Source: a virus. From it: a DNA stretch of 21,229 bases. The stretch covers positions 1 through 21,229 of the IMG/VR virus record IMGVR_UViG_3300027782_000430; one strand, 5' to 3'. Below are positions 1,098 through 21,229 of this stretch, piece by piece. Numbering within the stretch: the stretch's first letter is position 1; each line of letters starts with the position of its first letter. The notes under the pieces were generated by a model that saw nothing but the letters and a program-made list of their open reading frames with translations, was not told where the DNA came from and made no database searches. The position numbers and the translations under genes were made by a program.

Positions 1098-1649
1098 ATG
1101 TATCCGCCTGCGCCCCAACAATATCAACTTGCTGAAATGCCCCAGGATCAACCGATCCCTCAGCCCCAGGATAAACCCAAGGCTCCTGCTAAATCAAAAG
1201 CTGGTGATATTGGTACTTTTATCCAGCAATGTATTTCGTTGTGTGCTCAACTTACAGAACTAAGAACACAAGCACATCTTATACATTTGAATTATGAAGC
1301 ACCAAACTTTTTTGGTGTGCATGCATTTTTAAAAGAACAGTATGAAGCACATCAAGATCAGTTTGATAAATTAGGTGAGTTTATACGGTCTATGGATTAT
1401 CTAATGCCTATGTGTGCCAAAGGGTTAGCTAATGATTGCCCTGAATTTAAACATGTTACTAGCTATAAACCAAATGATATGTTAATTACGTACTATAAAA
1501 ACTTAGAAGATTTTGCTATGCGCTGCAAAAAAGTAGAAACACTTGCTGCCAAAGCACACGCTATTGATATCCAAAACTATATAGCTGAATTAGCAGGGGA
1601 AATCTTTAAGGCGGCTTGGATGGTTAAGGCTACGTTGAGGAATAGCTGA
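1098..1649 (+). CDS. Dps/ferritin-like protein
   Basis: A 183-residue protein of Dps size. Residues 1-36 are a Pro/Gln/Lys-rich disordered tail; the rest reads as a four-helix bundle. Residues 60-94 follow the Dps ferroxidase-centre pattern: H63, then H75 in VHAFLKEQYE, D90 and E94, with exactly the His-12-His-15-Asp-4-Glu spacing of bacterial Dps (E. coli H51, H63, D78, E82). The position of E. coli D67 is Lys79 here, so the iron site may be altered. Known Dps proteins form dodecamers, oxidise and store iron, and some bind DNA through Lys-rich N-tails. The ATG at 1098 is chosen for its AAGG site 9 bp upstream. The TGA overlaps the next ATG by one base. Whether this is a host-protection protein or a virion component is unclear; coupling to a structural-type gene hints at the latter. 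Confidence 0.7.
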   Translation: MYPPAPQQYQLAEMPQDQPIPQPQDKPKAPAKSKAGDIGTFIQQCISLCAQLTELRTQAHLIHLNYEAPNFFGVHAFLKEQYEAHQDQFDKLGEFIRSMDYLMPMCAKGLANDCPEFKHVTSYKPNDMLITYYKNLEDFAMRCKKVETLAAKAHAIDIQNYIAELAGEIFKAAWMVKATLRNS

Positions 1650-3763
1650 TGGCAATAGAACGTTTGTTTCCAGGGAAATATGCTAATCCTAATAGCCCTG
1701 CGGCTATACAAAGAGAGCAGGAAAAACGTAAAGCTGCTAATGCAATTGAAGCATTAGGCGCTGCTGCTGTTACTGTTCCATTTGCATTGACTTCTCCTTT
1801 AAATAGGCCTGGTGTAAATGCATCTTTCAACACACAACAAAAATTAGCACCTAGTATATTTCCTAACGCATTACCAGAAATTTTTGTAAATGGTAGTGTG
1901 CCAAGAACACAGTCACAGGTAAACGAACGTTTATGGGATACAAATGATCCTTATAAAATTAAAAACGAATATTTAACAACGGTAGAAAAACCGGGTGCTC
2001 CTAGTCCTGAACTAGGTTCTTATCAACAAGCTGTTGGAAACAAAACACTTTTTCCGCAAGGAGATATTCAAGCTGTTACGGTAACACCAGGTCCAAATCC
2101 TAGTCGCTTTGCCAAAGATTATGCAGAAGTATTAGCAGATAAACTTGGTAAAACAATTAATGAATATGAACAATTTACTACGCCACCCAAAGGGTATTCA
2201 GCAAGTAGCGTTGAAGAAATAACAAAACAATTAGATTTTATTCAAAACAATATAAACAAAGCTACAAAATTACAAAATAAAATCAACACACTTTCTAATA
2301 AAGTCCCAGGTACTGCTGGCTATGTCTGGGGTAATACAGGGCATCCTGAATATACTTATGCAGAAGGTAATTGGGGATTAGGTGAAAAATTTGCAGGCGC
2401 TAATCCTTCTATATATCTTTCTCGTATTAATGCGGACCCTTCTAAAGAAGCCGATTATTTATTCACACATAGTATTAAAAAAAACGGAAACGTAGATCCA
2501 CGGGCAAATTTTATACAATATGAAGATCTCGGTCCTGGCACAGGTCCTTCTTGGGGAACCTCTACTGCATCAAAAGATATTAGTTTTAGAAAAGATTTAA
2601 TCGGTGCTAGAGGAGAATTAACTACTGGTGATTTGCAGTCTCTTCTTGCTGAACGCAATTTATCTTTTAAATTTCAAACACAAAATCCAACAACTAAAAT
2701 AAAACCCGGAGATTTGTTACGTGATAATTTACAAGCATTAGCAAAAGCGGAAAATCTAACACCTTATCAAACATTAGAAAAATACGCACGTTCTGTACCA
2801 GCAGTAGGAGAAGCTGTTACGCTGCCTACCACTAGTGTAACTGGTGTGATAAGTGAATTTCCATCTATATCGCAACTATTAAATCCAGAAAGTGGCTACG
2901 CTAAAGCAACTGATTTAAAAAATATTGGTATACTGCCATCGAAAGGTAAAAGTTTTTATACTGTAATAACAGAACCTGACGAAAATTTTACTGATAATGT
3001 ATACAGAAAAAAACAAGGTATAAAGTCTAAATATGGAGCATCGACTGAAACGTATATTCCACCAAGATTAATACCTACTGATATTAATAATGTATCTAAA
3101 GACGATATTCTCCGCCCTGGTGGCTATGGTTTTACTATTAATAGAGATGTATTAAGACCTCTTGCTGCTCAAAAATTACTAAGAAGAGAGGCAAATAAAT
3201 TACTTCAAGCAGGGGAACCTGTAAAAGGTTTGGGTCTTGGTGGTTTTGCTACTGGTGGACTTCTTACGGCAATGGATCCTGCAGTTATTGATGCATTGTC
3301 TGCAGGTGATTATCTGCAAGCTGGAACAACTGCTGCTATGAATACAGCAATTGGTTCGGCTGTAGGAACAGGAGCACAATTAGGATTACAAAATTTAGCA
3401 ACAGCTGGTTATGTCCGTCCTGCTGCTTTTGTAGGTGGAACACTTCCTATGGCTGGCGGTTTACTAGCAGGTCTTGGTGCAATTGAAACAGGTAAAGCGC
3501 TTAATCGTGCATATCGTGGTCGCACTGGTAGTGACTGGACAACGCGAAATCAAACACAACAACCTACCATACCTCAATCATCTGTAACACCTAGTATTCA
3601 ACCACGTATGGGAACAGCAATTCTTGGTGGTAAACCTGTCCAAGTTCCTTATGGTTCTGTTGCTGGTACCAAGACTGTTGGTCGCCCTTGGTGGGATCAA
3701 CTTGGTTCTAAAGCCGAAGCATTTGCTAATTTATTAAACAGTGGTTCAATAATAGGTCGTTAA
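1649..3763 (+). CDS. Large putative structural or ejection protein (704 aa)
   Basis: The ATG overlaps the stop of the Dps-like gene by one base and has TTGAGG 8 bp upstream. The N-terminus is short and basic (IQREQEKRKAANAIEALGAAA), the middle is long, polar and low in cysteine, with many TPxxxPS segments. Residues about 530-650 are Gly/Ala-rich and hydrophobic (GLGLGGFATGGLLTAMDPAV, then GSAVGTGAQLGLQNLATAG and AGGLLAGLGAIETG), as in proteins that cross or insert into membranes during DNA ejection. The C-terminus has a Gln/Pro/Ser linker and ends in a compact domain (AILGGKPVQVPYGSVAG, then RPWWDQLGSKAEAF). No enzymatic motif is visible. Size, composition and position suggest a virion-associated inner or ejection protein. 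Its stop overlaps the convergent HNH gene by 4 bp. Confidence 0.65.
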   Translation: MAIERLFPGKYANPNSPAAIQREQEKRKAANAIEALGAAAVTVPFALTSPLNRPGVNASFNTQQKLAPSIFPNALPEIFVNGSVPRTQSQVNERLWDTNDPYKIKNEYLTTVEKPGAPSPELGSYQQAVGNKTLFPQGDIQAVTVTPGPNPSRFAKDYAEVLADKLGKTINEYEQFTTPPKGYSASSVEEITKQLDFIQNNINKATKLQNKINTLSNKVPGTAGYVWGNTGHPEYTYAEGNWGLGEKFAGANPSIYLSRINADPSKEADYLFTHSIKKNGNVDPRANFIQYEDLGPGTGPSWGTSTASKDISFRKDLIGARGELTTGDLQSLLAERNLSFKFQTQNPTTKIKPGDLLRDNLQALAKAENLTPYQTLEKYARSVPAVGEAVTLPTTSVTGVISEFPSISQLLNPESGYAKATDLKNIGILPSKGKSFYTVITEPDENFTDNVYRKKQGIKSKYGASTETYIPPRLIPTDINNVSKDDILRPGGYGFTINRDVLRPLAAQKLLRREANKLLQAGEPVKGLGLGGFATGGLLTAMDPAVIDALSAGDYLQAGTTAAMNTAIGSAVGTGAQLGLQNLATAGYVRPAAFVGGTLPMAGGLLAGLGAIETGKALNRAYRGRTGSDWTTRNQTQQPTIPQSSVTPSIQPRMGTAILGGKPVQVPYGSVAGTKTVGRPWWDQLGSKAEAFANLLNSGSIIGR

Positions 3764-4014
3764 TCTGTCCAGTGCTCAAGCCTGTGGCAGTTGCAACAAA
3801 GGGGAATACATTTTTCAATTTCTTTTTGGATGCGGTCCCAACCGTATCCATGATTAACCATTTTAGATACGTTTAAATCTTTGTCACCAATATGGTGAAA
3901 TTCAAGGACGCGATGATCGGCTAACTCACAGTGATTACAACGTAAAGTTTTTTTGTACGCAAGAAACTTCTGACGATTTCGCTCAATACGTTTTCGATTC
4001 TGCGTCCAGGTCAT
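3760..4014 (-). CDS. Small HNH endonuclease (84 aa)
   Basis: The product has the compact HNH/zinc layout: CNHC at residues 26-29, then VLEFHH with H40 and H41 as the metal/catalytic pair, and CCNCHRLEH at about 73-81 giving the second CxxC and the final His. The N-terminus is strongly basic (NRKRIERNRQKFLAYKK), suited to DNA binding. Stand-alone HNH proteins of this size are nicking or homing-type endonucleases common in phages. Its TTA stop complement overlaps the stop of the 704-aa gene in a 4-bp convergent overlap, so it sits exactly at the end of a structural gene. Its own 5' side is a dense hairpin region, and a short degenerate reading frame ends in an ATGA overlap with its start. Confidence 0.85.
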   Translation of the reverse strand: MTWTQNRKRIERNRQKFLAYKKTLRCNHCELADHRVLEFHHIGDKDLNVSKMVNHGYGWDRIQKEIEKCIPLCCNCHRLEHWTD

Positions 4015-4361: not shown

Positions 4362-4550
4362 TTATTTTTTCTTAGGTGGCACAGCCTTCTTGGCTGGGAC
4401 AGCTCCCTTCTTAGGGGGAACTTCTCCTTTCTTAGGAGGAACTACACCTTTCTTGGGCGGTACAGCTTCTTTTTTGCCGCCTTTCTCAGGGGCTGCTTTA
4501 CCGATGGGAACCATTCCCTTTCCGGGGACAAACTTTTTACCTTCAGCCAT
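4362..4550 (-). CDS. Lys/Pro-rich VPPKKG-repeat basic protein (62 aa)
   Basis: After a short N-terminus (MAEGKKFVPGKGMVPIGKAA) the protein is five near-copies of a 7-residue unit, (A/V/E)VPPKKG, ending AVPPKKK. About a third of residues are Lys and there are almost no acids after residue 30. It resembles histone H1-like or PAAK/PPKK-type tails that bind DNA or RNA without a fold. The repeat is visible in the DNA as a 21-bp periodicity. It is the last gene of the leftward operon, after two other small basic proteins. A purine-rich GAAGAGA lies upstream of the ATG. A role in DNA binding or condensation is inferred from composition only. Confidence 0.7.
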   Translation of the reverse strand: MAEGKKFVPGKGMVPIGKAAPEKGGKKEAVPPKKGVVPPKKGEVPPKKGAVPAKKAVPPKKK

Positions 4551-4585
4551 AATTAAAAATATCTCTTCAGTAATTATAGATTGAA

Positions 4586-4795
4586 TTACTTACTCTTGTA
4601 ACGTTTGGCTGCACGTGCTGCACGACCTGCTTTCTTAGCTGCATCCGTATTAGAAACAAATTGTTTTCCTTCACGACTGGCAGCACGTTTTTTTTGATCT
4701 GTTTCCTGACGTTCTTCTTTTGACAATGATGCCCAAGCTTTTTCTGGTAGGTAACGCTTGGTATATCCGTCCTGTATCGCCTTATCACTTGCCAT
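4586..4795 (-). CDS. Small basic protein, C-terminal half of a DUF5872-like type
   Basis: A 69-residue, very basic protein: MASDKAIQDGYTKRYLPEKA, then WASLSKEERQETDQKKRAAS, GKQFVSNT, and an Ala/Lys/Arg tail ending AAKRYKSK. From memory this matches the second half of a protein type found in large DNA viruses and phages (labelled DUF5872 in my recollection), where the first half carries 'GGKPGQWSARKAQL' and a 'SLxKW' segment. Here that first half is the separate gene immediately upstream. The ATG overlaps the upstream stop by 11 bp, and the AGAGG inside the upstream gene's Lys-Arg codons lies 8 bp before it, so translation is coupled. Function unknown; nucleic-acid binding is plausible. Confidence 0.75.
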   Translation of the reverse strand: MASDKAIQDGYTKRYLPEKAWASLSKEERQETDQKKRAASREGKQFVSNTDAAKKAGRAARAAKRYKSK

Positions 4796-5066
4796 CTTTA
4801 TACCTCTTGGCTGCAGCTTTAGCTTTACTGCGTTTCTCGTATTCGTCTTTGGTTTGCCACTTTTCTTTACCCCATTTTTCTAAAGATTTCTGCCCTTCTC
4901 CCTTACCTCCCTTATAACCCCCACCTTCTTGCTTATACTCTTGCGCTACAAGTTGAGCCTTGCGTGCAGACCACTGGCCTGGCTTACCTCCCTTGGAGCC
5001 AGCCATCACACGATCTTTAATGTTCTCGCGTAACTCAGGTTTTGTATACTTAGTCTCCTGAGACAT
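4785..5066 (-). CDS. Small basic protein, N-terminal half of a DUF5872-like type
   Basis: Taking the ATG complementary to 5064-5066 gives 93 residues: TKPELRENIKDRVMAGSKGG, then KPGQWSARKAQLVAQEYKQE, GGGYKGGKGEGQKSLEKWGK and a basic tail ending AAAKRYKDGK. The reading frame extends further upstream to 5159 but only through the neighbouring gene, so the internal ATG is preferred. The 'GGKPGQWSARKAQL...GGGYK...QKSLEKW' signature is one I recall from small uncharacterised proteins of giant viruses and phages. In those, the 'YLPEKAW...GKQFV' part follows in the same chain; here it is in the next gene. Both genes end in nearly the same tail (AKRYK), which suggests the split is settled rather than a fresh frameshift. 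Confidence 0.7.
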   Translation of the reverse strand: MSQETKYTKPELRENIKDRVMAGSKGGKPGQWSARKAQLVAQEYKQEGGGYKGGKGEGQKSLEKWGKEKWQTKDEYEKRSKAKAAAKRYKDGK

Positions 5067-5366: not shown

Positions 5367-5969
5367 CTACACTGCTTCTTGCCAGATCCAGCCGACTTGA
5401 TAATCATCAAAGTACGGTTCAATTCCAAGAGATTCCATCAGTTCATAAATAAGACGACCTTTGCCAAGGCGTTTGCCATTGGGTGCGGTGATGTTGTCAT
5501 CCACCACAATCAAGGTGCCCTCTTTAATACAGTTCTTAGCTGCAAATAATTCTTTTAGGTGGTGAGCAGCCGGTGCCCAGTCGTTATTCCAATCATCAAT
5601 ATTGTAGGAATCCAGGTAGAGAAGATCGACTTTACCTTCAAGAGAGCCAAGAAATTCCACTGAGTCTGACTCAACTACCTCGGTGAAAAAAGTATTTTCT
5701 CTGGCTAGCTCACATGCTTCTGGATCAATATCAACAGAATAAACACTACCTCCATGGTAATCAATAAATGAATCAAAAAGAAGAGTAGAGCATCCGTCGC
5801 CTTCATAGTTGTCTTCTTCACGGTACGTACCGGTCTCAACAATGACCGGATTTTTTTTGTCGCTTAGGTATTTAAAAATTTTTTGAAAGCTATCACTACG
5901 TTTGTTAAGACGGGGTTGAACGGTTTCAAAATATTCTGCCCATGAGGCGGGAGGATTGTGAACTTTCAT
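5367..5969 (-). CDS. Class I SAM-dependent methyltransferase
   Basis: The 200-residue protein has the Rossmann-type methyltransferase core. Motif I is at about residues 42-50 (VIVETGTYR, the SAM-binding Gly loop, followed by an unusually acidic EEDNYEGDG insert). The acidic SAM-ribose residue is in VYSVDIDPEAC (about 77-85), and motif IV-like KVDLLYLDSYN is at about 113-122. It resembles the Methyltransf_24-type enzymes that accompany glycosyltransferases in polysaccharide modification. The substrate cannot be read from sequence; a DNA methylase motif such as DPPY or NPPY is absent, so a small molecule, sugar or protein is more likely than DNA. It lies between two small genes of the leftward operon (gap 12 bp upstream, 14 bp downstream). 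Confidence 0.8.
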   Translation of the reverse strand: MKVHNPPASWAEYFETVQPRLNKRSDSFQKIFKYLSDKKNPVIVETGTYREEDNYEGDGCSTLLFDSFIDYHGGSVYSVDIDPEACELARENTFFTEVVESDSVEFLGSLEGKVDLLYLDSYNIDDWNNDWAPAAHHLKELFAAKNCIKEGTLIVVDDNITAPNGKRLGKGRLIYELMESLGIEPYFDDYQVGWIWQEAV

Positions 5970-8039: not shown

Positions 8040-10632
8040 CTTCATCCCACTTGACTGGCCGCTCACGCCACTCGGCGCACGTAAGGATCCGTACATTACA
8101 GGCTGGCAGGCTAAGCCTTTTGGCCTGAAAGAAATTGAAGAAGAAATTATTGCAGGTGACTGTAAAGCAGTTGGTGTCATAGGTGGGCCTGCTTACAACA
8201 ATCCGTATGGGTTGGTGTGGGTTGACATTGATGGGCCGACTGTCTACCCACTCGTCACAGAACTGGCAGACGAAACCGATTTCAATGCCGCTTTGCCTCC
8301 TACCTTGACCATTTGCAGCGGGAAAGAGGGTCGAGAACGGAAACTATACAAATTAAATCGGGAGAAACACAAGCACTTCGTCCGTAATAAATACACCTGG
8401 CACGGGACGGGTGCCAAAGAAAAACTTGAGATTCTTTGGTCTCGGCACCAGGGAGTTCTCATGGGTCTACACCCTGAGACTGACGGTTATTACACGGCAG
8501 AAGGGCAGGGGTTTGAGTGGTGTGACAAGCTACCAGAATTTCCGGACTGGTTATTGAATGCCATCATCAATAAGAATGTTAAGCAGGGGGTTCCGGCCAC
8601 AGAAATTACTCGTGTGGTTGGCAAGAATTTTGCAGTCACGTCTGAGATTAGTGTTGAACGTGACATGCAACTGGCACAGGAAGCTATGTGGGCTTTGCCT
8701 ATAGAAGCCTGTGATGACTACGACATTTGGATTACGATTGGTCAGACGCTTCACTCAACGGATGAATCCCTGCTCGATGCTTGGGATGAATGGTCCAAGC
8801 AATCAGATAAGTACAGGGATGGTGAGTGCCACAGACGTTGGCTTTCCTTTAGTAAAGGAGGGGGTCGTGGCTTGGGGTCACTAATACATATCGCCCAAGA
8901 ACATGGGTGGAAACCTTCGCAAGATCATCGGGCAATGAATGTAGACGACGCAACATTGGACCATGTTTCCAAGCTTCTTGTTGACCTTGAGAAGGAGCTG
9001 TTGGATTCAGGTCTTGAAGATTTGGTACAACCGGAGCAGCCTGCACAGGTGTTTGATACACGCCAAGCAAGGGTGCCGGTGCTACCAAGCACGAAACAAG
9101 GCAAAGACCAGAAGCCAAGGAACCCATCATCGGATGTTGTGTCGGATGTGATTCGGCAAATGTACAACGGCAACCTTCGGTACAGCCAAACGCAAGGCTC
9201 ATTCTTTATCTACGAGTATCGCGGGCCTGGGTTGTGGTCCCAGCTGTCGGAGCATGAGGTGCGTGGCGACATCAAACATAAGTTTGAAATGGTGAAGGAT
9301 AACTTTCTTCACAATGGCTACAGCATGAATCTGATCAACGATGTGCTAGAGCAACTTCGTATCACTCTCATCTTTGATGACTGGTACGAAAGCAATGACC
9401 ACCTGCTTTTTACTAATGGAATCCTTAACATCCACACCAGGGAACTCCTGCCTTTCAGTCGGGAAATGCACATCACGCAACAACTGCCCTACCCATATGA
9501 CCCAGGGGCTGGATGTGAACCCATCATCAAGTGGCTCAAAAGTGTCCAGGATGATTCCTGGGGAAGGGTGCAAGTCTTGCGAGCTTGGCTGCGGGCGGTG
9601 CTCCTGAGTTGTTCTGATATTCAAAAGTTTGTTGAGATTGTCGGCCCAGGAAAATCGGGTAAGTCAACCTACGCAAACCTGGCCCATGCCCTGGTGGGTG
9701 ATGACAACGCCATGATCTCCTCGCTGGAGCATCTGGAGAAAAACAGGTTTGAGACAGCTAACTTATATAAGAAAAAGTTATTGCTGTTCAATGATGTTGA
9801 GCGCTATGGCGGTTCGGTTTCAGTGTTGAAAGCATTGACTGGGCGTGACCTTATCCGTAATGAACGTAAGTTTCAGACCGGTAGTCAGAAGCCTTTCAAA
9901 TTTAATGGCCTTGTAATGATCACTGCCAATGAACCGATTCAAACAACTGATCCAACCTCTGGTCTCGCCCGTCGCCGTCTTACTATTCCTTTTAATAATG
10001 TGTTTGGTGGGTCGTCTGCAGAACAAAAAACACTCATCGATATGGATGATCGTGGGCGACCGTTCGGTGAATTTGCTCACCTCCTTCCTGGACTGGTCAA
10101 CTGGGTTCTCGACATGAATGAGACTGAGATGCGGGAGTACCTGATGGAAACCAATAACAAAGTTAAGTTTTTTGCTAAGCATCACCGCGAACAGATCCTT
10201 AAATCCAATCAAATTATGGATTGGTTGCAACACTGTATTGTCTTTGACCAGGGGGCATCTGCTCCTATTGGCCTAGCAAAACACACGACGGGTGGTTCTT
10301 CAAATGTATATGTGAGTTGCGACAAGTGGTTGTATGCCAGCTACTGTGAGTTCTCACGTGCCAGTAATAGCAACATTCTGGGTCGCAGCCGGTTTGAATC
10401 CCTGTTGATGGACGTGTGTATGCATCAGCTGAAATTGAATATCTACCAATTTAAAGACAGTCGTGGCATGCGTGTTGTCAACCTGGCATGTAGGGCAGGC
10501 GACCCTAAATATGCAAACTATCCATCTATTGTGGAAGTCGGTTTAAATAAAGAAGAGTGGCGATCTTACTACGGAGATGTGCTGGATAGGAAGACTGATG
10601 CAAAAATAGAGGATGAAGCAATAGACAATTGA
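7990..10632 (+). CDS. Primase-helicase (PrimPol + PriCT-2 + SF3/D5-like helicase)
   Basis: An 880-residue replication enzyme. Residues about 15-195 form an archaeo-eukaryotic type primase-polymerase domain, with the metal-binding VDIDG at 78-82 and GLHPETDGYY further on. Residues about 233-311 match the PriCT-2 linker (ALPIEACDDYDIWITIGQ ... GLGSLIHIAQEHGW). Residues about 455-700 are a D5_N plus superfamily 3 helicase: Walker A GPGKSGKST (552-560), Walker B LLLFNDVE ending at 604, motif C ITANE with sensor N647, then the arginine-rich SGLARRRLTIPF. The enzyme should make primers and unwind DNA at the phage fork. No Shine-Dalgarno is seen at the ATG. Its TGA overlaps the TTG start of speD. 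Confidence 0.92.
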   Translation: MTSTNKLSLRPGEIRLDFIPLDWPLTPLGARKDPYITGWQAKPFGLKEIEEEIIAGDCKAVGVIGGPAYNNPYGLVWVDIDGPTVYPLVTELADETDFNAALPPTLTICSGKEGRERKLYKLNREKHKHFVRNKYTWHGTGAKEKLEILWSRHQGVLMGLHPETDGYYTAEGQGFEWCDKLPEFPDWLLNAIINKNVKQGVPATEITRVVGKNFAVTSEISVERDMQLAQEAMWALPIEACDDYDIWITIGQTLHSTDESLLDAWDEWSKQSDKYRDGECHRRWLSFSKGGGRGLGSLIHIAQEHGWKPSQDHRAMNVDDATLDHVSKLLVDLEKELLDSGLEDLVQPEQPAQVFDTRQARVPVLPSTKQGKDQKPRNPSSDVVSDVIRQMYNGNLRYSQTQGSFFIYEYRGPGLWSQLSEHEVRGDIKHKFEMVKDNFLHNGYSMNLINDVLEQLRITLIFDDWYESNDHLLFTNGILNIHTRELLPFSREMHITQQLPYPYDPGAGCEPIIKWLKSVQDDSWGRVQVLRAWLRAVLLSCSDIQKFVEIVGPGKSGKSTYANLAHALVGDDNAMISSLEHLEKNRFETANLYKKKLLLFNDVERYGGSVSVLKALTGRDLIRNERKFQTGSQKPFKFNGLVMITANEPIQTTDPTSGLARRRLTIPFNNVFGGSSAEQKTLIDMDDRGRPFGEFAHLLPGLVNWVLDMNETEMREYLMETNNKVKFFAKHHREQILKSNQIMDWLQHCIVFDQGASAPIGLAKHTTGGSSNVYVSCDKWLYASYCEFSRASNSNILGRSRFESLLMDVCMHQLKLNIYQFKDSRGMRVVNLACRAGDPKYANYPSIVEVGLNKEEWRSYYGDVLDRKTDAKIEDEAIDN

Positions 10633-10982
10633 GCAACGGTCGCCACTTAATTCTGGATCTCTACGACTGTGATCCAGAAATCCTTGATAACTATGAGGAG
10701 CTTCAGCGATTGCTTGAGGCTTCTCTTGTGATGGCAAAAGCCAATATCCTTCGGATTATTGGTGAGAAATTTAAACCGCAAGGCGTTACCCTGTTGGCTT
10801 TGCTGGCAGAATCCCATGCAAGTATTCATACCTGGCCTGAGATTGGGTATGCGGCCATTGACTTATATACATGTGGTGATACCACTCAAACTCATAGGGC
10901 TGCTGAGTTCCTTAAAGTCAAACTTAAATCAACTAAAGCGAAAGAAAAAGAATTAGTACGGTCCACAACGCCGACGAATTAA
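10629..10982 (+). CDS. speD: S-adenosylmethionine decarboxylase proenzyme
   Basis: A 117-residue prokaryotic class 1B AdoMet decarboxylase. The self-cleavage pair is E61-S62 in LLAESHASIHTWPE; S62 would become the pyruvoyl group. H67 and C82 (YAAIDLYTCGD) match the conserved catalytic His and Cys (S63, H68, C83 in the Thermotoga enzyme). The enzyme makes decarboxylated SAM, the aminopropyl donor for spermidine. The start is TTG in a TTGA overlap with the primase stop; no ATG exists before residue 35, inside the fold, so the TTG is forced. speD has been reported as an auxiliary metabolic gene in cyanophages. Spermidine could help DNA condensation or replication. There is no speE or other polyamine gene in the window. 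Confidence 0.92.
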   Translation: MSNGRHLILDLYDCDPEILDNYEELQRLLEASLVMAKANILRIIGEKFKPQGVTLLALLAESHASIHTWPEIGYAAIDLYTCGDTTQTHRAAEFLKVKLKSTKAKEKELVRSTTPTN

Positions 10983-17900: not shown

Positions 17901-20387
17901 TTAAACTAAAGAATATTGGTACATAGAGTATGGTGTGGGTGATGCACTGACAATGTATAAAAATCTTCCTAAATCATCAATTACCACCCCATTTGTAGAT
18001 GTTGATTGTAAAGAAACACTGAAAGATTTGCTGTCATAAGAACCAGTGCTCACATCCCATGCTGTAGCGCAAGAGTATTGAAATACTGTATTATTTGAGC
18101 TGCCTACAATATAAAACTTAGTACCATCTGATTTAAAAAATACTCCGGCTGGAGATGATTCCTGTGAACTAACAAGAAAAGATTTACTGTCATAAGATGC
18201 AGTGCTAATATCCCATGCTGTAGCACATGAGTATTGATATACTCTTGTATTTGCCAGGCCTACAACATAAAATTTTAACCCATCTGGTTTAAAAAATAAT
18301 CCAAGTGATAGTGTTTCCTGTCCAGAAATACTAAATGATTTGGCATCATAAGATGCAGTACTAATATCCCACGCAGTAGCACATGAGTATTGAAATACCG
18401 TATCACTTGTTTGTCCTACAATATAAAATTTAGTACCATCAGATTTAAAAGATAATCCATGGGGAGCTGTTTCTTGCGTAGTAACACGAGCACGTCCGTA
18501 AGCACCACTTGAGTTGTAATTGAAAACCGCAGTAGTTACATCCCATGCTGTAGAACATGTGTATTGATAAAGCGAATCATTTTGACTGCCAAGTAAATAA
18601 AGCTTGGTGCCATCTGAGCTAAAAGTTATTTCAGTTGGGTTGTCATCTTGTAAGTTTACCGCAAAAGATTTAATGCCAAACCCAGCATTAACCACGTCCC
18701 ATGCCAGGGGTAGGTCGTATTGAAATAAAGTATCAGTCGCTGCACCTACAACGTAAAGTCTAGTGCCGTCTGATTTAAAAAATAAACCGTATGTTTGATT
18801 GTCTGTTGCGGAAACCGTAAAAGATTTATTATCATATGAAGCAGTACTTACATCCCATGCTGTAGCACATGAGTATTGAAAAACTCTTGGAGTATTTAGT
18901 CCTATGATATAAAATTTAGTACCATCATCTTTAAAGAATAATCCATATGGATTTATTTCTTGTGTAGCAACACTAAACGATTTGGTATCGTAAGAGGCAG
19001 TGCTGATATCCCATGCTGTAGCACATGAGTATTGATAAATAGTATTATTAGTGTCCCCTACAACATACAGCTTAGTACCATCTGATTTAAAAAATAATCC
19101 AGTTGGAATTGTATCTTGCGTTCCAACATTAAAAGATTTAGTGTCATATGACGCAGTACTTACGTCCCATGCTGTAGCACAAGAGTATTGATATACTCTT
19201 GTATTTGCTTGACCTACAATATAAAACTTAGTGCCGTCAGATTTAAAAAAGAAACCTAAAGGTAGTGTTTCTTGCGCAGCAACACTAAACGATTTGGTGT
19301 CATAAGATGCTGTGCTTACATCCCATGCTGTAGCGCATGAGTATTGATAAATAGTATTATTAGTGTCCCCTACAACATAAAACTTAGTGCCATCTGATTT
19401 AAAATAAACATCCTGTGGAACCGTATCTTGTCCCCCCACATAAAACACACCGCCAGCTCTATTGTTAGTACTAACATCCCAGGCAGTAGACAAGGTGAAT
19501 TCAATTACTAAGTCAAGATCAGTACCAATAACATACAATCTAGTTCCATCAGATTTAAAACATAAACCAGTAGAGGATCCTTCTATACCAGAAAGTCGGC
19601 AAGATTTAGTATCGTAAGATCCTGTACTTACGTCCCAGGCCGTGGCGCATGAGTATTGGTATACTGCGTCGCTAACTGAGCCGACAACATAAAATTTAGT
19701 ACCATCTGATTTAAAAAATACTCCATTTGGCCCTGAATCTTGTGCAAAAACACTAAATGATTTAGTATCATAAGATGCAGTACTTATATCCCATGCTGTA
19801 GCGCAGGAGTATTGATAAACCGTAACACCGTTAACACCTGCAATATAAAACTTAGTGCCGTCCGGTTTAAAAAATAATCCAAGCGGGGTTCCTTCTTGTG
19901 CATTAACACTAAATGCTTTAAGATCATAAAAAGCAGTACTTACATCCCATGCAGTAGCACATGAGTATTGATATACAGTGTCATTTGTTTGGCCTACAAT
20001 ATAAAACTTGGTACCATCAGATTTAAAAAATAATCCATTTGGAGTACTTTCTTGCGCATTAACACTAAAAGATTTACCTGTGTAAAAAGCTGTAGTTACA
20101 TCCCATGCTGTAGAACAAGAGTATTGAAAAATTGTATCTCCAGAAGTACCTATAATATAAAGTTTAGTTCCATCATCATTAAACTGAACATCGGTGGGCG
20201 TTGTTTCACTTAACCCAACCGTCCATTTTTTATTTAGGTAATATCCGTTATTCACCTCCCACGGTTGACCGGTCCATTGGGTATCACGTACCATTTGCCC
20301 CTGGTCGTAAATTTCCCAAGCCCCTGTTTTACTGGCAGAGACGGCGCTGTAACCAGAGGGTTTTTTACCGATGTAACTTCCTTTCAT
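17901..20387 (-). CDS. Beta-propeller-like repeat protein, probable tail fibre
   Basis: An 828-residue protein. The first 60 residues (KGSYIGKKPSGYSAVSASK, GAWEIYDQGQMVRDTQWTG) resemble phage tail-protein N-terminal modules that attach to the virion. The rest is 15 tandem units of about 52 residues: AWD(V/I)STASYD, (T/S)KSFSV..Q, GLFFKSDGTKFYIVG, and NDTVYQYSC. The SDGTKxYxVG turn is the mark of propeller blades; 15 blades would make two 7- or 8-blade propellers. Units vary mainly after FYIVG and at the loop after KSFSV. Such proteins bind sugars or cell-surface partners, so receptor binding is the likely role. It starts 20 bp downstream of a paralogue. Confidence 0.8.
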   Translation of the reverse strand: MKGSYIGKKPSGYSAVSASKTGAWEIYDQGQMVRDTQWTGQPWEVNNGYYLNKKWTVGLSETTPTDVQFNDDGTKLYIIGTSGDTIFQYSCSTAWDVTTAFYTGKSFSVNAQESTPNGLFFKSDGTKFYIVGQTNDTVYQYSCATAWDVSTAFYDLKAFSVNAQEGTPLGLFFKPDGTKFYIAGVNGVTVYQYSCATAWDISTASYDTKSFSVFAQDSGPNGVFFKSDGTKFYVVGSVSDAVYQYSCATAWDVSTGSYDTKSCRLSGIEGSSTGLCFKSDGTRLYVIGTDLDLVIEFTLSTAWDVSTNNRAGGVFYVGGQDTVPQDVYFKSDGTKFYVVGDTNNTIYQYSCATAWDVSTASYDTKSFSVAAQETLPLGFFFKSDGTKFYIVGQANTRVYQYSCATAWDVSTASYDTKSFNVGTQDTIPTGLFFKSDGTKLYVVGDTNNTIYQYSCATAWDISTASYDTKSFSVATQEINPYGLFFKDDGTKFYIIGLNTPRVFQYSCATAWDVSTASYDNKSFTVSATDNQTYGLFFKSDGTRLYVVGAATDTLFQYDLPLAWDVVNAGFGIKSFAVNLQDDNPTEITFSSDGTKLYLLGSQNDSLYQYTCSTAWDVTTAVFNYNSSGAYGRARVTTQETAPHGLSFKSDGTKFYIVGQTSDTVFQYSCATAWDISTASYDAKSFSISGQETLSLGLFFKPDGLKFYVVGLANTRVYQYSCATAWDISTASYDSKSFLVSSQESSPAGVFFKSDGTKFYIVGSSNNTVFQYSCATAWDVSTGSYDSKSFSVSLQSTSTNGVVIDDLGRFLYIVSASPTPYSMYQYSLV
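17930..20250 (-). repeat. 15 tandem repeats of about 156 bp (52 aa)
   Basis: In-frame direct repeats inside the 828-aa gene, with near-identical DNA at the YQYSC-AxAWD segment and variable DNA at the loop positions. High local identity makes recombination and assembly collapse both likely. Confidence 0.85.
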
Positions 20388-20407: not shown

Positions 20408-21229
20408 TTATTGTAGTAGACATGAGTATTGATAGATCGTATCGCTAGCTTCACCTAAAACATAAAATGTAGTACCATCTGATTTAAATTGAATATCATG
20501 GCTTGTCGTATCTTGTGTTAAAATACTATACGCAACACCGTCATAGGAAGCAGTGCTTACGTCCCATGCGGTAGTACAAGAGTATTGATAAGCTGAATCA
20601 TTTATACTACCTACAATATAAAATTTTGTTCCGTCATCTTTAAAAAACACACCTTGTGTAGTACCTTCTTGCGCTCTAATAATAAATGATTTTGTTTCAT
20701 AGTACGCGGTACTAATTTCCCAAGCTGTGCCACAGGCAAATTGAAATACTGTGTCGTTTGTAGTACCTGTAATATAAAACTTAGTGCCGTCTGGTTTGAA
20801 AAACAATCCTTCTGCGCCGCTTTCCAGTGTAGTAGCACTAAATGACCTGCTATCGTAAGATGCAGTGCTTACGTCCCACGCCGTAGCACATGAGTATTGG
20901 AATACCGCATCATTTGAACTGCCTATTACATACAGCTTAGTGCCATCTGGTTTAAAAAATAAACTACTGGGTTGTGTTTCTTGCGCAGTAGTAGTAAACG
21001 CTTTGTTGTCATAAGACCCAGTACTAATATCCCAAGCCGTTGCGCATGAGTATTGAAAAATTGTGTCGTATGTATTGCCAACAATGTAAAATTTAGTTCC
21101 GTCTGTTTTAAAAACTAACCCATAGGGCACTGTTTCTTCTGTAACTGTTCTAAACAATTTATTGTCATGAAAAGGAGATTGAATTTCCCATGCGGCAACA
21201 GTTGAGTATTGATATATTGTGTCATTTAT
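20408..21229 (-). CDS. Paralogous propeller-repeat protein, 5' end beyond the window
   Basis: The frame is open to the right edge, so only the C-terminal 273 residues are seen. It has the same 52-residue unit, at least five complete copies plus a partial one at the edge (NDTIYQYSTVAAWEI), and ends IYQYSCLLQ. The 828-aa paralogue ends YQYSLV, so both stop at the same point in the unit, as expected when a propeller closes between blades. The two genes are tandem on the - strand with a 20-bp gap, so they are probably successive tail genes made by duplication. Details of its N-terminus and blade number cannot be seen. Confidence 0.8.
   Translation of the reverse strand: MNDTIYQYSTVAAWEIQSPFHDNKLFRTVTEETVPYGLVFKTDGTKFYIVGNTYDTIFQYSCATAWDISTGSYDNKAFTTTAQETQPSSLFFKPDGTKLYVIGSSNDAVFQYSCATAWDVSTASYDSRSFSATTLESGAEGLFFKPDGTKFYITGTTNDTVFQFACGTAWEISTAYYETKSFIIRAQEGTTQGVFFKDDGTKFYIVGSINDSAYQYSCTTAWDVSTASYDGVAYSILTQDTTSHDIQFKSDGTTFYVLGEASDTIYQYSCLLQ

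Follow-up and report, generated by a model that had tools for sequence, protein, structure and literature searches.

A Dps-like miniferritin with an altered ferroxidase site adjoins a variable gene slot in S-EIV1-like cyanophages

The window, that is, the whole 21,229-nucleotide stretch analyzed here (positions 1 to 21,229 of IMG/VR virus record IMGVR_UViG_3300027782_000430), encodes a Dps-like protein in which four ligands of the ferroxidase site are kept and a fifth canonical residue is replaced. The gene comes from an S-EIV1-like freshwater cyanophage. We consider that this phage Dps, a Dps-fold miniferritin, probably acts as an intracellular iron-binding cage that protects replicating DNA, and that its gene also forms one edge of a recombination slot. 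The features concerned are the following:

1098..1649, plus strand: Dps-like miniferritin gene (183 aa); its S-EIV1 homologue is AHV82153, annotated as "DNA-binding ferritin-like protein"
1098..1208, plus strand: N-terminal tail (residues 1–37), Pro-rich, with the Lys cluster KPKAPAKSK, predicted to be disordered
1284..1379, plus strand: ferroxidase-site stretch H63–E94, with H63, H75, D90, and E94 kept, K79 in place of Asp, and L64 in place of Trp
1649..3763, plus strand: 704-aa slot protein, overlapping dps by 1 base, with homologues of about 51–52% identity
3760..4014, minus strand: small convergent HNH endonuclease gene (84 aa; PHROG HNH, 5.3e-18), overlapping the slot gene by 4 bases

The dps ORF runs from an ATG at 1098 to a TGA at 1647–1649. 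Its 183-aa product matches Pfam Ferritin PF00210 (E = 1.7e-12; 47.9 bits, above the curated cut-off of 24.5) and PHROG_3636 (E = 1.6e-27). In the phage collection, its sole relative is the protein of Synechococcus phage S-EIV1 (65% identity, 146 aa). Two IMG/VR scans confirmed 153 and 238 homologous stretches, respectively, and six of the seven S-EIV1-like records longer than 75 kb carry the gene. Scores against the NCBIfam equivalogs of E. coli Dps (16.5 bits, cut-off 114) and cyanobacterial DpsA (16.3 bits, cut-off 300) lie below the cut-offs. A scan of bacterial and archaeal genomes with the Dps alignment found no homologue by means of phage-specific peptides as search patterns, so that a cellular Dps is still a possible origin.

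The AlphaFold2 model of the monomer, built from 38 sequences (window and related loci; pLDDT 83), is a four-helix bundle with a BC helix (helices 36–65, 71–98, 107–112, 125–152, and 156–181). When this model was searched against the PDB, the best 50 matches listed were all Dps, with TM-scores by target mostly between 0.75 and 0.88; its BC helix is short, and by these matches it is nearest to Dps and not to the 24-mer ferritins. The sequence-only reading had called the protein Dps-like, and this identification holds: given the predicted bundle and the Dps proteins that make up these 50 matches, a refutation based on the fold fails. The same reading had described a Pro/Lys-rich tail. The composition was rightly noted, with the correction that the tail is N-terminal. 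Residues 1–37 comprise 9 Pro, 4 Lys, and 4 Asp/Glu and carry little net charge, KPKAPAKSK occupies positions 26–34, and pLDDT is below 50 for nearly all of residues 1–34.

As had been claimed, H63, H75, D90, and E94 are separated by 12, 15, and 4 residues, and what was then called the second Asp of the site is Lys79, which aligns with the Asp or Glu found four residues after the second His. HMM alignment to solved Dps structures pairs K79 with E. coli D67, Listeria D47, and a Glu of HpNAP, and places the four conserved residues on the inter-subunit ferroxidase site, not outside it. The E. coli and Listeria sequences in our comparison alignment are what we take to be the reference Dps of these species. 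Across 84 distinct homologues, the four ligands never vary; position 79 carries Lys in 63 of them and Gly in 21 and is never acidic. Another nine loci, several of which diverge more (52–64% identity), agree with this. The residue following the first His, canonically Trp, is Leu in 78 of the 84 and Phe in six, and the compared sequences have Phe, Tyr, or Leu after the Glu, where Arg is canonical. Judging from these alignments, the changed ferroxidase site was correctly recognized and is family-wide, and the replacements of Trp and Arg had been missed. The Ferritin and PHROG_3636 E-values, the fixed ligands, and the constant Lys or Gly at position 79 put the observation well beyond chance.

The canonical ferroxidase site is composed of two His and one Asp from one monomer and of an Asp and a Glu from the other (PMC6675082). 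The phage Dps has only four of these five residues, the first Asp being Lys or Gly in 84/84, and we therefore left it out of the canonical-ferroxidase subclass. It is not a His-type Dps either, as the counterpart of E. coli position 78, D90, is Asp in all 84 sequences. Two candidates for an additional ligand were rejected: the acid at position 80, which is Asp or Glu in 75/84 and otherwise Lys, Gly, Ala, or Asn, and H85, which is invariant but, by residue count, does not share the helix face of the site. In the C–D loop, where the alignment is uncertain, the acidic-pore positions of Listeria Dps, presumably correctly assigned, align with Ala/Gln151, Ile156, and Asn160; D157 is invariant. With Ala/Gln, Ile, and Asn at these places, iron may enter poorly.

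The phage Dps thus has the bundle with its BC helix and the H/H/D/E spacing of the Dps of E. coli, Listeria, and Campylobacter (3kwo) and of HpNAP (1ji4). It differs from them by a Lys or Gly instead of Asp/Glu as fifth residue, by Leu/Phe for Trp and Phe/Tyr/Leu for Arg, and probably by the lack of the pore acids. Dps are also encoded by Streptomyces, Lactobacillus, Campylobacter (CP220), Proteus, Cronobacter, Salmonella, and Aeromonas phages. In nine of ten other phage Dps compared, unlike that of the window, the equivalent of position 79 is Asp or Glu; in CP220, it is Gln. The cyanobacterial His-type proteins NpDps4 and TeDpsA likewise carry no coordinating acid where E. coli Dps has residue 67; their sequence similarity to the phage Dps is weak, and D78 is replaced by His in them, whereas the phage Dps keeps Asp. 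Our data add a Dps subclass, represented by many environmental sequences, with replacements at one canonical residue and two nearby ones and with all direct ligands fixed. This combination offers a clean test of the role of the fifth residue.

In Listeria Dps, iron is held by H31, D58, and E62, and H43 is the only other proposed ligand, for a second metal (PMC7762939). All four have invariant counterparts in the phage Dps. In NpDps4, an Asn occupies the position of E. coli Asp67 and makes no contact with the metal (PMC6675082); this protein, whose pore is noncanonical, nonetheless oxidizes iron with O2 (PMC6675082; PMC7762939). As the Listeria ligands are all kept and NpDps4 is active with Asn, loss of the Asp is not evidence for an iron-free protein, and the fact that the other ligands never vary speaks for metal binding having been kept. 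The proposal that the protein is iron-free is consequently unsupported. Fe(II) would be bound at the four-ligand site, with site A complete and site B weakened by the change of Asp to Lys or Gly.

A rather unlikely alternative is that the metal site is structural or a slow oxidase, holding one Fe or Zn/Mn, and that Dps mainly serves as a DNA-coating cage during replication. The kept site A ligands next to a weakened site B and a probably weakened pore would fit such a role, and Zn is known to bind site A in other Dps (PMC6675082). However, the four ligands make up the full Listeria set, including the equivalent of H43, the ligand of the second metal.

The genomic context bears on where Dps acts. 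In S-EIV1, dps lies on the same strand as the genes for primase, DNA polymerase, SSB, and ThyX, and the terminase gene and its neighbors are on the opposite strand. Similarly, in the Salmonella, Cronobacter, Proteus, Aeromonas, and Campylobacter phages, the genes directly beside dps encode thymidylate synthase, ribonucleotide reductase or its ATP-cone, or a processivity factor together with GTP cyclohydrolase; Lactobacillus phage Lb338-1 has a thymidine kinase gene one gene away from dps. This location among replication and nucleotide genes points, indirectly, to a part played while DNA is synthesized in the cell, not in the virion, and Dps most likely works within the infected cell. There, subunits would assemble into a cage that associates with DNA through the Lys-containing N-terminal tail and may limit iron/peroxide damage to replicating phage DNA in the light. 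In the window, the primase gene is followed by an S-adenosylmethionine decarboxylase gene (10629–10979); S-EIV1 has one too.

The sequence-only reading had instead suggested that the protein could be a Dps derivative free of iron, used in the virion and binding DNA or capsid, which we regard as improbable. The Lys or Gly at the Asp67 equivalent, the loss of the Trp and Arg of the site, the probably weakened acidic pore, and the Lys in the tail are in its favor. But ligands fixed in 84/84 are unexpected if metal binding was lost, the S-EIV1 gene belongs to the replication/nucleotide arm opposite the terminase arm, which leaves use in the virion unsupported, and the supposed virion partner is exchanged or missing in relatives.

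This partner is the 704-aa protein, whose ATG indeed begins at 1649, the final base of the dps TGA, which gives the 1-base overlap reported before. Six homologues (about 51–52% identity) are found in viruses carrying other Dps alleles. The protein could be assigned to no family in PDB, Pfam, PHROG, or NCBIfam, and it has no counterpart in the phage or plasmid collections. When six of its peptides were used to scan viral sequences directly, no relatives appeared; its homologues were reached only via dps loci. Its AlphaFold2 model (seven sequences; pLDDT 36) is uninformative. Its former description as a likely virion protein is not borne out; its gene is exchangeable slot content and is missing from many loci. 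The argument that the overlap reflects a shared role fails as well: the coupled gene is swapped between relatives, or absent, beside near-identical Dps, so that the overlap says little about the role of Dps.

We define the slot as the stretch between the dps stop codon on the left and the convergent HNH gene on the right (1649–4014 in the window). The small HNH gene is present downstream of dps in 73 of 91 distinct loci, and in 63 of the 68 with at least 4.5 kb of sequence downstream of dps. Measured from the dps stop codon to the HNH 3′ end, the slot is empty in 19 loci and filled in 54, and holds zero to three unrelated orphan proteins. The slot proteins form at least 14 families under a 60% coverage rule and 17 under a 75% rule, one small "family" being a flanking exonuclease gene picked up in the absence of the HNH gene. 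In filled slots, the start codon of the first gene usually overlaps the final base of the dps stop codon (offset 0 for 41 of 51 such genes), and the last gene often ends on the HNH stop codon. A scan seeded with the HNH protein found a convergent dps in 77 of 80 loci, at distances of −13 to 2903 bases; the sequence of the three others stops less than 1 kb from the HNH gene, giving 77/77 testable loci. Both the dps- and the HNH-seeded scans started from window proteins, and these slot counts therefore describe this phage lineage only.

Slot content varies between close relatives. It differs in 27 of 32 pairs of loci whose Dps are at least 96% identical, and the median nucleotide coverage between such pairs (blastn) is 0.57 upstream and 0.49 downstream vs 0.0 in the slot. 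The clearest case is L068 and L070: their upstream regions, dps, HNH, and downstream regions are 100%, 98%, 98%, and 96% identical, respectively, and their slots show nearly no similarity (4% covered). Parsimony on the Dps tree counts 37 slot-type changes vs a mean of 43 for shuffled labels, which is nearly random, with a small inherited component. The relative nearest to the window by primase (95%) and HNH (94%) has both another Dps allele (60%) and another slot protein, indicating that dps and the slot can move together. Recombination in the genes on either side probably moved the cargo next to dps, and HNH cleavage perhaps helps this exchange. Free-standing HNH endonucleases beside variable phage genes are known from intronless homing in T4. 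The likeness here is one of gene position, with a small HNH gene bordering sequence that is quickly exchanged. A hypervariable slot is thus exposed in a widespread cyanophage lineage, and its orphan proteins can now be listed and tested for functions in defense, counter-defense, or others.

Some slot proteins share modules. Those of L053 and L112, with unrelated N-terminal parts, have a common C-terminal stretch (81% over about 150 aa), as do those of L102 and L110 (72% over 134 aa). Others have a common N-terminal LFQxFLN...GGxLPGGG stretch. From the sequences, recombination from the HNH side would explain the shared C-termini, a targeting tag being the alternative; we rejected the shared C-terminus as proof of virion targeting, because recombination beside the HNH gene explains it equally well. 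In L341 (5207 bases), a slot-type protein with an LFQxFLN...LPGGS N-terminus is encoded past the HNH gene, on the opposite strand, and this module is therefore not confined to the slot. The product of positions 20441–21907 in L082 (S-EIV1 AHV82152) is annotated as "sulfate adenylyltransferase." Neither PHROG nor NCBIfam supports this name, and the L002 homologue lacks a Pfam match; the product is a slot protein, and the annotation is probably wrong.

T4 possesses variable internal proteins, and by analogy the dps–HNH slot might, although this seems very unlikely, be a dedicated position for cargo, where a single conserved Dps translation unit serves in many phages to express polymorphic proteins that have C- or N-terminal modules in common and are possibly co-packaged with Dps and injected against host defenses. 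It is also very unlikely that Dps and the slot protein work as a unit, such as a cage and its guest, with the overlap reflecting a complex: the overlapping start is retained in most filled loci, but 19 of the 73 bounded loci are empty, the content differs between near-identical Dps, and the median slot coverage is zero, below that of both flanks.

Other observations concern the remainder of the window. Three small Lys-rich ORFs lie near the HNH gene (4362–5066, minus strand). One is a Pro/Lys repeat (VPPKKG) and one is weakly DUF5872-like, below the Pfam cut-off; they could be histone-like DNA-binding proteins. A second variable block contains a methyltransferase gene (5367–5969), also found in L004 and L007; other relatives have ORFs of about 242 aa and of 390–400 aa instead, the corresponding block occurring in L002, L008, L014, and L017. 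At the end of the window, tandem ORFs on the minus strand (17901–20387 and 20408–21229) encode beta-propeller-like repeats of about 50 aa with SGL/Lactonase matches.
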